From the NCBI RefSeq assembly GCF_900091415.1, contig NZ_FMHU01000001.1, forward strand, positions 124,001 through 188,000: 64,000 nucleotides of DNA, in the 5' to 3' direction. This DNA is from Micromonospora inyonensis. GTDB taxonomy: Bacteria > Actinomycetota > Actinomycetes > Mycobacteriales > Micromonosporaceae. The notes under the pieces are model-generated. The model was not told the DNA's origin. It saw only the letters and a list, made by a program, of their open reading frames with translations, and ran no database searches. Positions 28,992 to 35,534 of the stretch are shown piece by piece; position 1 is the first letter of the stretch, and each line of letters opens with the position of its first letter. The translations under genes and the position numbers were made by a program.

Positions 28992-29216
28992 CTACTTGGC
29001 CTTCTTCGCCTGAACCTTGGCGTACTTCTGCTGGAACTTCGCGACCCGACCCGCGGTGTCGAGCACCCGCTGCTTACCCGTGTAGAACGGGTGGCAGGCG
29101 CTGCACGTCTCGACGTGGATCGAGCCGCCCTTGGCGGTGCTGCGGGTGGTGAAGGAGTTGCCGCAGGAGCAGGTGACCTCGGTGGTCACATACTCCGGGT
29201 GGATGTTGGCTTTCAT
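28992..29216 (-). CDS. rpmE: Ribosomal protein bL31, zinc-binding form
   Basis: A 74-residue large-subunit ribosomal protein. It starts [20 protein letters not shown] and carries the zinc ligands in CSCGN and [12 protein letters not shown], so it is the C+ form that holds zinc. The C-terminal part is the Lys-rich [14 protein letters not shown] chose ATG 29216; a longer upstream frame is not conserved. rpmE lies between rho and prfA in mycobacteria (Rv1298), and the order is kept here although rho is now about 6 kb away. Confidence 0.96.
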
Positions 29217-29427
29217 GTCGCCTTCGGTCCTCTCGTGGGTGGTCGCCGGGTCGCCGCCCGCGCAGGTCGTGCCTGTGCGGGATCGGGCGTGAACCGGAAC
29301 CGGTGGCCGATTGACCAGTGTGCCATGGGCTTCCGCCGACCCGGAAACCGGGCCACACAGCTGCCCCAACACGGTCCGCACCACCGGCATTCCCGCCCCG
29401 ACCGGGACCATTCACTACCGTGACGGG

Positions 29428-30334: not shown

Positions 30335-30432
30335 CGCGCCGGTGCCGGATGCGCCGGATGCCGGGTGCCGGATGCGCCGGGTGCGGCGGGTGCGGGTGCG
30401 CCGGATGCCGGATGCTGGATGCCTGGTGCCGG
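30335..30432. repeat. Degenerate short tandem repeat (GGTGCCGGATGC-like)
   Basis: About 100 bp built from imperfect repeats of GCCGGATG / GCCGGGTG / GCGCCGG units after the kinase-phosphatase gene. It is purely intergenic and runs straight into palindromic repeat copy 3. It has the look of slipped-strand expansion. Confidence 0.55.
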
Positions 30433-30433
30433 G

Positions 30434-30489
30434 TGCCTGCAGGGGTCCCCTCCTCCACAGAATGCGGTAGGAGGGGACCCCTGCTACCA
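30434..30489. repeat. Palindromic intergenic repeat, copy 3
   Basis: The third copy of the 56-bp palindromic family, reversed relative to copy 1. The arms TGCAGGGGTCCCCTCC and GGAGGGGACCCCTGC flank a centre containing CAGAATGCGGTA. The outer part of the left arm is changed (TGCCTGCAGG). It lies between convergent genes, as the other two copies do. Confidence 0.8.
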
Positions 30490-30491
30490 CC

Positions 30492-30994
30492 TCAGGCGGC
30501 CGAGGCGACCGCCCCGGACGTGGCGGTGAGCCGCAGCGTCGCCTCGGCGCGTACGCCGTTGACGGTCACCGCGAGCACCACCGAGTCGGCCGGTCGCAGC
30601 GCGGTGAGCGTGCCGGTGGCCGGATCGAAGCGGGCCACTTGCCAGGGCTTCACCCCGTCCGCCGGGCCGACGTGGACGCTCGGCGACGCCGACCAGTCCG
30701 CGCTGGCCGGCGCGGCCACCGGCACGGTACGGCCCCCGGGCTGCGTGATCGTCGCGGTCACCGTCGCCGGGGTGCCGACCGCGACGGTGTCGGGGGCGGC
30801 CAGGGTGAGCCGGTCGACGTGTGCCCGGAACTCTGCGGCCACCCAGCGCGGGCCCTCGACCAGCGCGTCACGTCGGGCGCGCTCAGCCTCCTGCGGGGTC
30901 ACCGGGTCCACTCCGACCATCGTCCAGCCGGTGAACCCGCCCTGGTCGGCGGGGCTGGACGGGCCCTTCCCGGAGTTGCCGTTGATCAGGAAAG
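30492..30994 (-). pseudogene. 3' fragment of the phosphodiester glycosidase/phosphoesterase gene, cut off by IS110
   Basis: 167 codons in frame with the 5' fragment at 32495-35440. The fragment starts right at the core dinucleotide with FLINGNSGKGPSSPADQGGF and ends after an Ig-like beta domain (VTATITQPGGRTVPVAAP, VVLAVTVNGVRAEATLRL). Deleting the element and one CT core restores GVPFLINGNSGK, which looks like the end of the metallophosphatase domain. It lacks its own promoter and signal peptide, so it is probably silent unless read from the element. Confidence 0.85.
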
Positions 30995-31014
30995 ACATCC
31001 CAGGAGCTTGAATG

Positions 31015-32259
31015 TCAAGCAGCAGCCTCGTTGAGGTGATGCGACCAGGCGGTTGCCTCGTCGTACGGGGTGCCGGTTTTGAGGCATCCGTGCAGGATGC
31101 CGACGAGTCGGTTGGCGAGCTGGCGCAGCGCGGCGTTGTAGCTGGCGCCGCGGGCGCGTTGCCGGTCGTAGTAGGCGCGGGCGCCCGGGGAGGCCTTCAA
31201 CGCGGAGAACGCCTGGGTCATCAGCGCGTCGATGAGCCGGTCGTTGTGCACGAACCGGGCCGCGACGGTCCTCTTCTTCCCGGACGCGCGGGTGATCGGG
31301 CTGGTCGCGGCGTAGTTCTTGCGGGCCTTCGCCGAGACGTAGCGGGCGTGGTCGTCACCGAACTCAGCGAGCACCCGGGCACCGAGAACCGTGCCCAGTC
31401 CGGGCTGGGACAGGATGATCTCAGCGTCCGGGTGCCGGCCAAAATGGGCCTCCACCTGCCCCTGCAGGACCTTGACCTGCTCGTTGAGGGTGGACAGCAG
31501 CGCGATCAGCGCGCGGACCGAGGCCGCGTAGGCGGCGGTGACCACGGCGGGCTGGCCGAGGTGCTCGGCGCGCAGCGTGGTCTGGATCGCGGCCGCCTTG
31601 GCCGGAATGTCACGCCGGCGGGCCCGTTTGAGGGCCGCGCTGATCTGCGCCAGGCTCAACCGGGCGGCGCTGGCCGGGTCCGGCGCCTTCGCCAGGAGTT
31701 CCAGGGTGTCGGCGGCGTCGAGGTCCTCGAACGCGGCGAGGGCGGCCGGGAAGTACTCCCGCAGCGCATGCCGCAGCCGCTGGCCGGCGCGGGTACGTTC
31801 CCAGATCAGCGTCTTGTGCATCCGCGAGACGACCTTGACCGCCTCCGCATCAGCGCTGTCACCGGCCATCGGGCGCAGTTGGTGCGAGTCGGTACGCACC
31901 ATGTCCGCCAGCATGTGCGCGTCCGCCGCGTCGCTCTTGGCCCCGGACACCGCCAGGCGCTCCCGGTAACGGGCCGCCTGCAACGGATTCACCGGATACA
32001 CCGTGTATCCGGCGGCGACCAGCGCTTGTACCCACGGACCCCGATCGGTTTCGATACCGATCCTCACCCGCCCGGACACGTCCTCGGCATCGATGTCGTC
32101 ACCGAGCGCCTGACCGATCATCGCGTGCAGCCTCGTCATGCCCGCCATGCCTTCCGGCAGTCGGGCCTTGGCCAGCCGGCGACCGGACGCGTCCATCACC
32201 TCGACGTCGTGGTGGTCCTCCGCCCAGTCATCTCCCACGAACAGCAACACGTCTCCCAC
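31015..32259 (-). CDS. IS110-family DEDD transposase (bridge-RNA-guided recombinase)
   Basis: A 414-residue transposase. The N-terminal RuvC-like DEDD domain has VGDDWAEDHHDVEVMD (Asp 11), IGIETDRGPWVQAL (Glu 70) and GAKSDAADAHMLAD (Asp 110 and 113). The middle is a helical linker. The C-terminal Tnp domain has ILSQPGLGTVLGARVLAEFG and TSPITRASGKKRTV, where the Ser before Gly-Lys-Lys is the likely catalytic serine. The gene is intact from GTG 32259, though GTG codons 4 or 8 could also serve. In the IS110 family the protein cuts and rejoins DNA at a site chosen by the bridge RNA. Confidence 0.92.
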   Translation of the reverse strand: MGDVLLFVGDDWAEDHHDVEVMDASGRRLAKARLPEGMAGMTRLHAMIGQALGDDIDAEDVSGRVRIGIETDRGPWVQALVAAGYTVYPVNPLQAARYRERLAVSGAKSDAADAHMLADMVRTDSHQLRPMAGDSADAEAVKVVSRMHKTLIWERTRAGQRLRHALREYFPAALAAFEDLDAADTLELLAKAPDPASAARLSLAQISAALKRARRRDIPAKAAAIQTTLRAEHLGQPAVVTAAYAASVRALIALLSTLNEQVKVLQGQVEAHFGRHPDAEIILSQPGLGTVLGARVLAEFGDDHARYVSAKARKNYAATSPITRASGKKRTVAARFVHNDRLIDALMTQAFSALKASPGARAYYDRQRARGASYNAALRQLANRLVGILHGCLKTGTPYDEATAWSHHLNEAAA

Positions 32260-32290
32260 CTTCCGAGCCGATCACCTTCGGTAGCCAGGA

Positions 32291-32460
32291 GGAGAACCAT
32301 CAGCGACCTAATGAAGCAGTGCTCACGCCGCGACCGGGCGGGCACGACATCCCATCAGCGATCAACTCTCCACACCGACCGACAGCGGCACGCTCTTTCA
32401 TCAGGACTCCACGTCCAGGCACCACGAGTGCTCGCCTGCCGGCGGCTACCTACCCACCAG
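32291..32460 (-). ncRNA. Predicted IS110 bridge RNA (target and donor binding loops)
   Basis: It is read on the minus strand in the IS left end, before the transposase gene. First loop: CGTGGTGCCT (32417-32426) matches the left target plus core, CGGGGTGCCT, at 9 of 10 positions. GAAAG (32395-32399) is complementary to the core plus right target, CTTTC. The two are separated by a GGAC/GTCC hairpin (32404-32416), and the loop is closed by CGGCA/TGCCG. Second loop: TGGGATGTC (32346-32354) equals the right end plus the first core base. TCATTAG (32308-32314) is the exact complement of core plus left end, CTAATGA. A GTGC/GCAC hairpin (32319-32345) lies between them and GGAGAG/TTCTCC closes the loop. 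The order target loop then donor loop is as in IS621. The exact RNA ends are not determined. Confidence 0.82.
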
Positions 32461-32494
32461 GAGTTTGCCGGATGGCTCACTCCCAGAACTCATT

Positions 32495-35440
32495 AGGCAC
32501 CCCGTCGACCCGGTCGGCGTGGAAGGTGCCGACGTGTCCGCCGACGAAGAGCGCGCCCTTGCCGGTGCGGTGCTGGAAGTCGGCCAGCCACTGCTCCACC
32601 AGCGCCGCCTCCTTCCGGTCGGTGAGCTGGCTGGCCTTGGCCGGGCCGGGGTCGCGCGGCGGGTGGTGGTGCAGCACGGCCACCGAGCCGATCCGGTCGT
32701 CGCCAGCGGCGGAGTCCAGCGCGGACCGTAGGGCCCGGACCTGGTCGAAGCCGCCACCGCGCAGGGTCCCGGTGGAGCTGTTCAGCGTGACGAAGCGGGT
32801 TCCCCTGTGGTCGAAGACCTTCGACGGCGCACCGAAGACCGCCTCGAAGTTGGCGATCGGGGCGCCCATGATCTCGTGGTTGCCCGGCACGTAGTGGTAG
32901 GGCAGCTCGCCACCGAGTTCCTCGTCCAGGATCCGCTTGGCCAGGGCGAAGTCCGCCGGGTAGGCGGTGTCCACGAAGTCCCCGTTGATGAGGAGGAAGT
33001 CCGGCTTCGCCGCCTTGACCTCGCGCAGCGTCCGGCGGGCCTGGGCGACCAGGTCACTGTCCGGGTTCGCCGCGACGAACTGCGCGTCGGAGAGGACCGC
33101 GAAGCGCCACGGCATCCCGGCGACGGTGCCGTCGCGCAGCACCACCCGGTCGGTCCGGTGCGGCTCGGCGGGTACGTCCACAGTGGGCGACACCTTCGCC
33201 ACCAGGTCGTCGATGACCACCTCGCTGGTGTACTTCGCGGCGGCGTTGGTCTCGGCCACGTAGAAGCGGCGGACCCGCAGCGGGTACTGCACCCCGGCGG
33301 GTACGTCGAACTGCACGTACCGCCAGCCGGTCCAGGTGACCAGCGGCCCGCGCAGCACGTGCTGGGTGTCCTGCGCGTCGTGCAGGTGCAGGCTGGGCCA
33401 CTCGCCCGTGCCGTTGCCCTTGATCCACATGCCGAAGGCCTGCGGCTGCCCGGGGACCGCGATCCAGGCCGGCGGGTCGGCGTACGCCGCCCGGGTGCCG
33501 GTGGACTGCCCGAAGTCGTACGACATCCGCAGGCCGGTGCCGGTGCGGCCCGGTGCGGGGGCGACCGAGCCGGTGGCGCGGGCGGCGCTGAACCTCCAGT
33601 TCGCCGCGTCGTCGAAGCCGGCGACCGGCACGTCGGTGAGGCCGACGGTCACCGGCACCACGGTGCGCTGCCCGGCCACGGTGACGGTGACCAGGGCGGA
33701 GCCGCTGTCGCGGAGCGCGGCGACGGTGAGGTTGCCGTTGGTGTCGGGGGTGATCCGCAGCAGCTCCCGGTCGTAGGCGAGGGAGATGTCGGAGGGCTCG
33801 ATCGGCGCGGTGTTGCCCTCGGCGTCGTAACCGACCACACCGAAGGTGCCGGTGCCCCGCGCGTCGGCGAGGCCGACCCGGTCCGCGGTGGAGTCGACCC
33901 GGGCCAGCGGCCCGAGCACGGTGAGGTCCAGCGTGCCGCAGGCCTCGTCGTGCCAGGCGGTGACGGTGGTCCGGCCGGGCCGGACGGCCCGGAAGACGCC
34001 GTCGGCGTCGACGGTGCCGTGGGCGGCCGGGTTGGCCCGCCACGTCGGCGTTCCGGCCGCCGGGCCGTACGTCTCGTCATGGCCGGCGGCGGTGAGCCGG
34101 CGGGTCAGGCCGGGAAAGACCCGGTCCGGCCGGCCGCCCCGGACCGGCGCGACGCCGGGCGCGGCGGTGGGGTCGGCGGCGGTCTCCAGCCAGTACCCGG
34201 TGAGCCGGCCGCTGCCCTTCGGGGCGTAGACGGCCAGGCCGTTCGGGACGGCCCGCTCGGTGCCGTCGGAGGGACTGTTCTCCACCTGGACGGACGCCGC
34301 GCCGGGCTCGCGGGCGAGCAGCGTCGAGGAGCCGCCACCGTCGAGGTTGAGCGCGTGGTGCGCGCCGAGTTCGGCCATCATCCGGCCCATCTCGGTCTGG
34401 GTGACGCCCCGGCTGTCGACCTGCCGGCCGTCCACCGTCAGCATGATCATCTTGCGCCCGTCGGCGGTGAACCCGACCGAGGTGCGTGGGGCCAGGGAGG
34501 TGTCGGCGATCTGCTGCACCACACCGTCGCGGACCAGCACGTTGCCGCCGCCGACCGCGGCGTTCGGGGTGCTGCCGTCCGACGTGCGCGGGCGGTAGGC
34601 GACGGTCACCGCGTCACCCGGGCGCAGGCCGGCGAGGGCGTCCGACCCGGCGTCCCGGCCGAGCAGGATGGTGGTGCCGGCGGGGATCGGGCCGCTGCCG
34701 GCGCGGTCGGTGACGGTGGCGACGCGCCCGTCGACCACGGCGACCTCGGTGACCCGGGTCGCGCCCTCGACCGCCCGGGACCGGTCGTACGAGCCCCAGA
34801 GCGCGGTGAAGACGCCGGTGCCGCCCGCCTGGACCATGTTGTTGAACTGGGTCAGGGTGACCGGCCCGGCGGGCAGGGTGGCGGTGCCCTCGAAGTGCAC
34901 CTGGATCACCCGGCCGAGCCCCTCGGCGGTGACCGCCACCGCGTTGGTGTGCCCGGCGACCGGCGACTGGATCAGCTCGCCGCCACGGATGCCGATGCCC
35001 TGCGCGGCTCCGGAGTTGTTGATGTCGAAGAAGTCGCCGTTGACCGCGGCGACCGCGCGGGAGGCGTCGACCGCGCCACGAAGCGGCTCGGCCCGGCTGA
35101 CCGCGCCGGAGTTGACGTAGTCGACGGTGAGGTCACCGGTCAGGTCGGCGGTGAGGGCGTCGGCCCGCAGCCAGCCCTGCTGGTCGTACCGGTCGAAGGA
35201 GGTGAGGTCGAGCCCGGGTGCGACCGGGCGGGTGGTCTTCGCGGTCTCCAGGCCGTCGGCGGGCGCGACGCCCGCGGCAGCGAGGGTGGTGACCGTGGTC
35301 GGGTGGGAGGAGGCGCGGGGGACGTCCTCGGCGGCCGTGTCGGCCCCGGGCGACGCGACGACGACCGGGGTCGGGCCGGCCAGGCCGAGCAGCGGCGTCA
35401 GCACCAGCACGCCGGCAAGTCGGGCGGATCGGGTACGCAT
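32495..35440 (-). pseudogene. 5' fragment of a secreted phosphodiester glycosidase / calcineurin-like phosphoesterase gene
   Basis: 982 codons before the IS110 junction; the frame then runs into the element and stops at 32477 after NEFWE. It has a signal peptide (RLAGVLVLTPLLGLAGPTPV). A phosphodiester alpha-GlcNAcase (NAGPA/DUF2233) domain has MAELGAHHALNLDGGGSSTL. Ig-like and carbohydrate-binding-like beta regions follow. The C-terminal metallophosphatase domain shows FAVLSDAQF, LLINGDFVDTAYPADF, YHYVPGNHEIMGAP, LHHHPPRDPG and FVGGHVGTFHADRVDG. All metal-binding motifs precede the break, so a truncated but still active enzyme is possible. The intact protein would have had about 1,148 residues. 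The start ATG 35440 is the likely one; TTG 35461 is an alternative. Confidence 0.88.
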
Positions 35441-35534
35441 GCGCGTCAGCCAACCCGACAACGAACAGAACTTTCAATACCCTGCCGGCCAACTGTAGGA
35501 AAACTCCAGCCGGCGATCTCGCTCTGAGCAGTGA

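Follow-up and report, generated by a model that had tools for sequence, protein, structure and literature searches.

Bridge-RNA systems of IS110 elements

The closest described system is that of IS621, a bridge-RNA system published in 2024. The element described here belongs to this system, in an actinobacterial branch, and the system itself is already known. The IS110 architecture, the CT core, the longer right guides and the junction promoter have all been published (PMC11208160), and every part of the bridge-RNA design is covered by PMC11208160, PMC11208158 and PMC11187229. Bridge RNAs have been predicted in 85.7% of IS110s (PMC11208160). In the IS110-type seekRNA elements, the RNA that chooses the target likewise derives from the non-coding region upstream of the transposase gene, and the account of these elements stresses a shorter targeting RNA of 70–100 nt (PMC11187229). 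The main text of PMC11208160, supplements apart, holds no word starting with “actino” and no “Streptomyces”. In the open-licence literature from 2024 onwards, bridge RNA, Actinobacteria and insertion sequence were not found together, and a published list may well include the element. IS110 and Micromonospora occur together in open-licence literature only in work that is apparently on another subject.

The element lies on the minus strand of a 64,000-nucleotide stretch of Micromonospora inyonensis DNA, the whole of which is referred to below as the window (Table 1). It is alike to IS621 (PMC11208160, PMC11208158) in the recombinase fold, the catalytic residues, the CT core and the promoter predicted at the joined ends. 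The likeness extends to the predicted RNA of the left end, in which a target loop, preceded by a possible 5′ stem-loop, is followed by a donor loop, with guides flanking each loop. The first-pass annotation had proposed an IS110 element with a left-end bridge RNA of this architecture, and the proposal held on testing. There are differences in dimension. The predicted RNA is near 200 nt, within a left end of 237 bp including the core, whereas the IS621 RNA is 177 nt, and the right guide spans the core plus five bases as opposed to 4 nt in all for IS621.

Table 1. Coordinates of the element, its predicted RNA and the interrupted gene in the window
Feature	Position	Strand	Basis or remarks
IS110-group insertion sequence	30995-32496	minus	1502 bp with one CT core counted; 30993-32496 with both cores
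Left CT core	32495-32496	minus	Copy junctions and joined-flank homologues
Right CT core	30993-30994	minus	Copy junctions and joined-flank homologues
Interrupted gene, upstream part	32497-35461	minus	NAGPA and Metallophos domains
Interrupted gene, downstream part (FLINGNSGK...)	30492-30992	minus	Joined-flank homologues
Recombinase	31015-32259	minus	414 aa, GTG start; DEDD_Tnp_IS110 and Transposase_20 domains
TTGACA, -35 half of predicted promoter	31013-31018	minus	Complete only with ends joined; overlaps recombinase stop codon
Predicted bridge RNA	32280-32484	minus	About 195-205 nt; ends inferred from predicted promoter and last helix
5′ stem-loop SL1	32459-32484	minus	Single-sequence fold and hand-chosen register
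Left target guide CGTGGTGCCT	32417-32426	minus	Letters located; covariation with left targets, 49 guides
Hairpin between both target guides, GGAC...GTCC	32404-32416	minus	Helix 3; 98.1% of cells paired; 2/4 pairs with both-side changes
Right target guide ATGAAAG	32395-32401	minus	Pairs with CT plus 5 bases; signal core+1 to core+5, none at +6, +7
Left donor guide TGGGATGTC	32346-32354	minus	Letters identical to right end
Hairpin between both donor guides	32319-32345	minus	Helices 7 and 8 of consensus fold
Right donor guide TCATTAG	32308-32314	minus	Complement of CTAATGA; core+4 covaries

The recombinase

The recombinase matches two Pfam families above their cut-offs (PF01548, E 1.4e-34; PF02371, E 8.7e-11), and scores 171.5 bits, with a cut-off of 140, against the NCBIfam model NF033542, “IS110 family RNA-guided transposase”. 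Residues D11, E70, D110, D113 and S326 align with D11, E60, D102, D105 and S241 of IS621 in a phmmer alignment read by eye, the catalytic residues of IS621 being named as in PMC11208158. The IS621 recombinase (8wt6) is only distantly alike, its best stretch reaching 26.6 bits over residues 255-402. The ISCro4 transposase (9t56), an IS110-type recombinase with a solved structure, is also distant in sequence (E 3.1e-08). The IS1111 group, in which the RNA resides in a long right end, does not fit on this point, the right end here being only 20 bp. The recombinase also has a weak similarity to NF052498, the model for the RNA-guided endonuclease TIGR-Tas (E 2.8e-05; 24.2 bits, cut-off 100).

Element borders and the interrupted gene

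As seen from copy junctions and joined flanks, insertion takes place at a short shared CT core without further target duplication. The left end (237 bp with the core) is non-coding and holds the RNA structure. The ORF of the upstream part of the interrupted gene enters the element and meets a stop at 32477. When the flanks are joined via one CT the gene reads GVPFLINGNSGK, in frame, and it had been claimed that this join fixes the boundaries. Uninterrupted homologues of the host gene from relatives were checked for differing junctions, and all 19 are gapless over 46 columns around the proposed joint, some of the alignments being gapped elsewhere. The core position is occupied by CG in 16 of them, by CC in 3 and by CT in 0 of 19. 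The claim stands for length and frame, which the homologues fix, but not for the exact pre-insertion letters, since the homologues are without CT at the core. The proline codon present before insertion would have been CCT, as deduced from the two CTs of the element.

Guides and fold of the predicted RNA

Every guide string of the first-pass annotation was found on the minus strand exactly as reported. The string GTGGTGCCT occupies 32425-32417, and CGTGGTGCCT starts one base earlier, at 32426; the match of the left guide to the left target, given as 9 of 10, was reproduced. GAAAG (32399-32395) does pair with the core and right target, as had been read, and the guide is in fact longer, reaching core plus five bases across relatives. 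On the donor side, TGGGATGTC repeats the right end at 32354-32346 and TCATTAG complements the core and left end, CTAATGA, at 32314-32308, both in agreement with the earlier reading.

The fold was derived from an alignment of 54 left ends (A1), with a consensus structure of 41 pairs. In this alignment the left guide stands out as variable, flanked by an invariant GAGCAC on one side and the following hairpin on the other. Helix 1 of the consensus fold (GGTAGCC with GGCTACC) joins both ends of the RNA around both loops. One helix closes the target loop, with a hairpin within, and two short helices close the donor loop, again with a hairpin within. The suggested order of target loop before donor loop, with the guides in internal loops around hairpins, is borne out by this fold. 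Changes on both sides occur in 24 of the 41 pairs. Shuffles average 9.3, with 0/500 reaching 24, and no slid version exceeds 11, though the latter comparison favours the consensus structure, which was derived from the same sequences. For SL1, hand pairing at the column pair 9-59 finds C-G in 32 of 48 sequences and G-C in 14, and RNAalifold, run on the same alignment over the first part of the left end, gave no SL1. At the gathering score, a search of the 64-kb window with Rfam returned two families (tRNA and the L31 leader) and nothing on the element.

Covariation of guides with targets and donors

Family loci comprised the best 80 of 397 from one search and 30 from another. The pattern anchors were met by 70 of the 80, by 9 of the 30 (with 3 more left out as duplicates) and by 7 loci of the same genome, and the set holds 88 rows. 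One L087 row was dropped, the L039 guide was placed manually, and the left-target test leaves aside L065, L099 and L121.

Guides and targets vary together on both sides of the core. For left targets (84 rows, 49 distinct guides), the own guide matches 6.89 of 9 positions, core included, versus 4.36 for permuted pairs, the top permutation reaching 5.04. The corresponding values for right targets (82 rows, 31 distinct guides) are 6.74 of 9, 4.20 and 5.31. The own value was reached by 0/10000 permutations on either side, the permutations taking no account of the relatedness of guides. With the left register moved by 1-2 bases, matches fall from 4.65/6 to 1.37-2.32. The left match declines with distance, being 0.94 for the base adjoining the core and 0.46 for the seventh base out, and the right-target signal stops after five bases from the core. 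With ties allowed, no other guide outscores the own one for 32 of the 49 guides on the left and 24 of the 31 on the right. Counted by row, 58 of 84 agree with the guide at five or more of the 7 left positions, and 74 of 82 at four or more of the 5 right positions. Poor fits are also present in the family, with at most 2/7 on the left in 4/84 rows and at most 2/5 on the right in 3/82.

The donor side is more conserved than the target side, yet it covaries wherever it is variable. On the right donor, core+4 (G, C or A) tracks the guide in all 18 guide classes and core+5 in 0.83; for core+4 the own value is 1.00 versus 0.41 permuted (0/10000 permutations). On the left donor, A or G goes with the guide. 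It is identical to its guide in 72 of 83 rows, where the fifth letter is A in 68 and G in 4, and differs from it in the other 11.

The loci L101 and L102, from the same-genus genomes G094 and G057, have the left flanks and guides of L020 (Micromonospora sicca) and L022 (M. marina). Five copies in Phytohabitans flavus (L088-L092) have one common left flank and nearly alike right flanks, so that their target is probably a repeated sequence itself. The right targets of L021 and L029 resemble the 3′ half of a tRNA gene (TTCAAGGCGGTAGC.CGGGTTCGA or close). A tRNA scan of the joined flanks in 83 rows, including these two tRNA-like loci, found none.

What emerges is an actinobacterial branch of bridge-RNA elements whose guides are resolved, comprising 49 distinct left guides together with the targets found for them in nature. 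Such a set could be used for targeting rules in high-GC hosts, and provides candidate recombinases for actinobacterial engineering.

Copies and insertion sites in the same genome

The genome carries six copies of the element whose identity rounds to 100%; five are full and one is interrupted (L006/L013). To these are added a fragment of the left end, L017, and less similar copies at 89%, 72% and 71%. L004 and L005 lie within the same nested host gene, another IS110-type gene, and count as one insertion event, so that the six copies represent five distinct sites. This amounts to a natural test of one set of guides at five sites, one of them needing a bulge.

Sites were scored over seven positions left and five right of the core, with 5718 CT sites elsewhere in the window as background. 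The window site matches its guides at 10 of 12 positions, a value equalled by none of the 5718 (background fraction 0), and the earlier proposal that the guide explains this insertion site is upheld. The other sites score 9/12 (L002; background fraction 0.00017), 8/12 (L013; 0.00052), 7/12 (L003; 0.00297) and 6/12 (L004/L005; 0.01434). The possibility that copies with the same guides sit at unrelated targets had been raised against the proposal. Four of the five sites fit in register, whereas the left half of L004/L005 fits only when bulged. In register it matches 2/7, a chance value reached by 0.57 of background sites, and with one target base skipped it matches 5/7, a choice made after the site was seen; its right half matches 4/5. 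A relative's locus, L050, resembles this site, matching 1/7 on the left in register, with GACCGC recurring one base further from the core. For the L017 fragment only the left flank can be compared, and it shows 5/7 guide matches.

Free perfect sites are not enriched, the exact pattern GGWGCCTTTC occurring 6 times in the genome versus 10 for the reversed pattern. Likewise, GGTGCCTTTC with 2 mismatches occurs 39 times in the window versus 49.8 expected.

Some copies show further features. The copy at L013 (G000:C2 near 3089772-3093208) has an interruption of about 1.9 kb close to its right end, and the two matches overlap by 6 bases. The copy at L003 is located at the 5′ end of another copy of the IS110 relative that hosts L004/L005. 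The L017 fragment (631-857; G000:C1 near 1963626-1963854) keeps the whole predicted guide RNA with no adjacent recombinase, and this RNA could serve other copies in trans. The gene that starts beside the fragment resembles an IS3-type orfA.

A predicted promoter across the joined ends

When the right end is joined to the left end, the sequence reads TTGACA-17-TCTAAT. The CT core falls within the second box, which in the integrated form is TCTTTC instead. The predicted circle junction has the sequence ...TGGGATGTCTAATGAG.... Among 56 distinct predicted junctions, TTGACA is present in 53 and TCTAAT in 52, counts that are partly built in, as the ends were chosen by patterns requiring C[TA]AAT and, mostly, TGACA. 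The independent part is limited to the spacing and the first T, the spacer being 17 in 48 junctions and 18 in 8. A promoter spanning the core of the joined ends has been reported for IS110 elements (PMC11208160).

Proposed mechanism and alternative explanations

The element is very probably an insertion sequence of the IS110 group, with bridge-RNA-guided recombination as its mode of action. At the level of sequence, this reading has behind it the borders, the guide positions, the covariation of guides with targets and donors, the conserved fold, the promoter letters and the catalytic residues. Transcription, circle formation and recombination would proceed as follows. The recombinase would excise the element as a circle, in which the CT core, now between the joined right and left ends, would lie within a newly formed sigma70-type promoter. 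From this promoter the left end may then be transcribed into an RNA some 200 nt long. The first internal loop of the RNA would pair with the left and right target halves, and the second with the joined element ends. The recombinase would swap strands at the CT common to target and donor, so that one CT remains on each side.

It is conceivable that the recombinase protein alone reads a short core motif (e.g., GCCTTTC), the matches in the left end being a by-product of base composition or of conserved ends. Such recognition would account for the near constancy, throughout the family, of the CT and of the C before it, as well as for the right half TTC in many members. It is nonetheless extremely improbable, as closely related elements differ in their guides and their targets differ along with them, permuted pairs never equal the own score, and the signal is lost in shifted registers. 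An RNA mechanism is, moreover, known for IS110 from NCBIfam and published work. The copies could also belong to a true bridge-RNA element and yet be dead, having spread by homologous recombination or segmental duplication as opposed to transposition. L004 and L005 speak for such spread, as they have a common nested host gene around them and the pair needs only one insertion. The other four sites, however, have unrelated flanks and exact CT junctions, and the 100% identity of the copies and the open 414-aa frame point to recent movement, which makes spread of dead copies very unlikely.

A possible target-to-target join

A further locus, L152 (G000:C1 near 3051621), contains the left half of the IS110-type transposase gene that hosts L004/L005, cut exactly at the same core. 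The half-gene is joined through CTTTCA to unrelated DNA starting TTCACTCG, with the right guide still fitted. This is as expected if target halves had recombined, or if a copy had been excised after an exchange of flanks; ordinary end joining at the six shared bases could also produce it. Apart from weak partial matches, no second copy of the L152 right half was found. In assays, deletions and inversions of the genome between insertion sites have been reported as rare events (PMC11208160). We tentatively suggest, while considering it rather doubtful, that the guide RNA has a further role in this genome, rearranging one target site with another, as at L152. If true, the element would give rise not only to insertions but also to precise deletions or inversions guided by RNA.

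Other features in the window

An L31-Actinobacteria ribosomal protein leader is present at 29241-29303 on the minus strand, upstream of the ORF at 28992-29411. Short repeats of the CCGGATG / GGATGCC type lie at approximately 30350-30460, just downstream of the interrupted gene.
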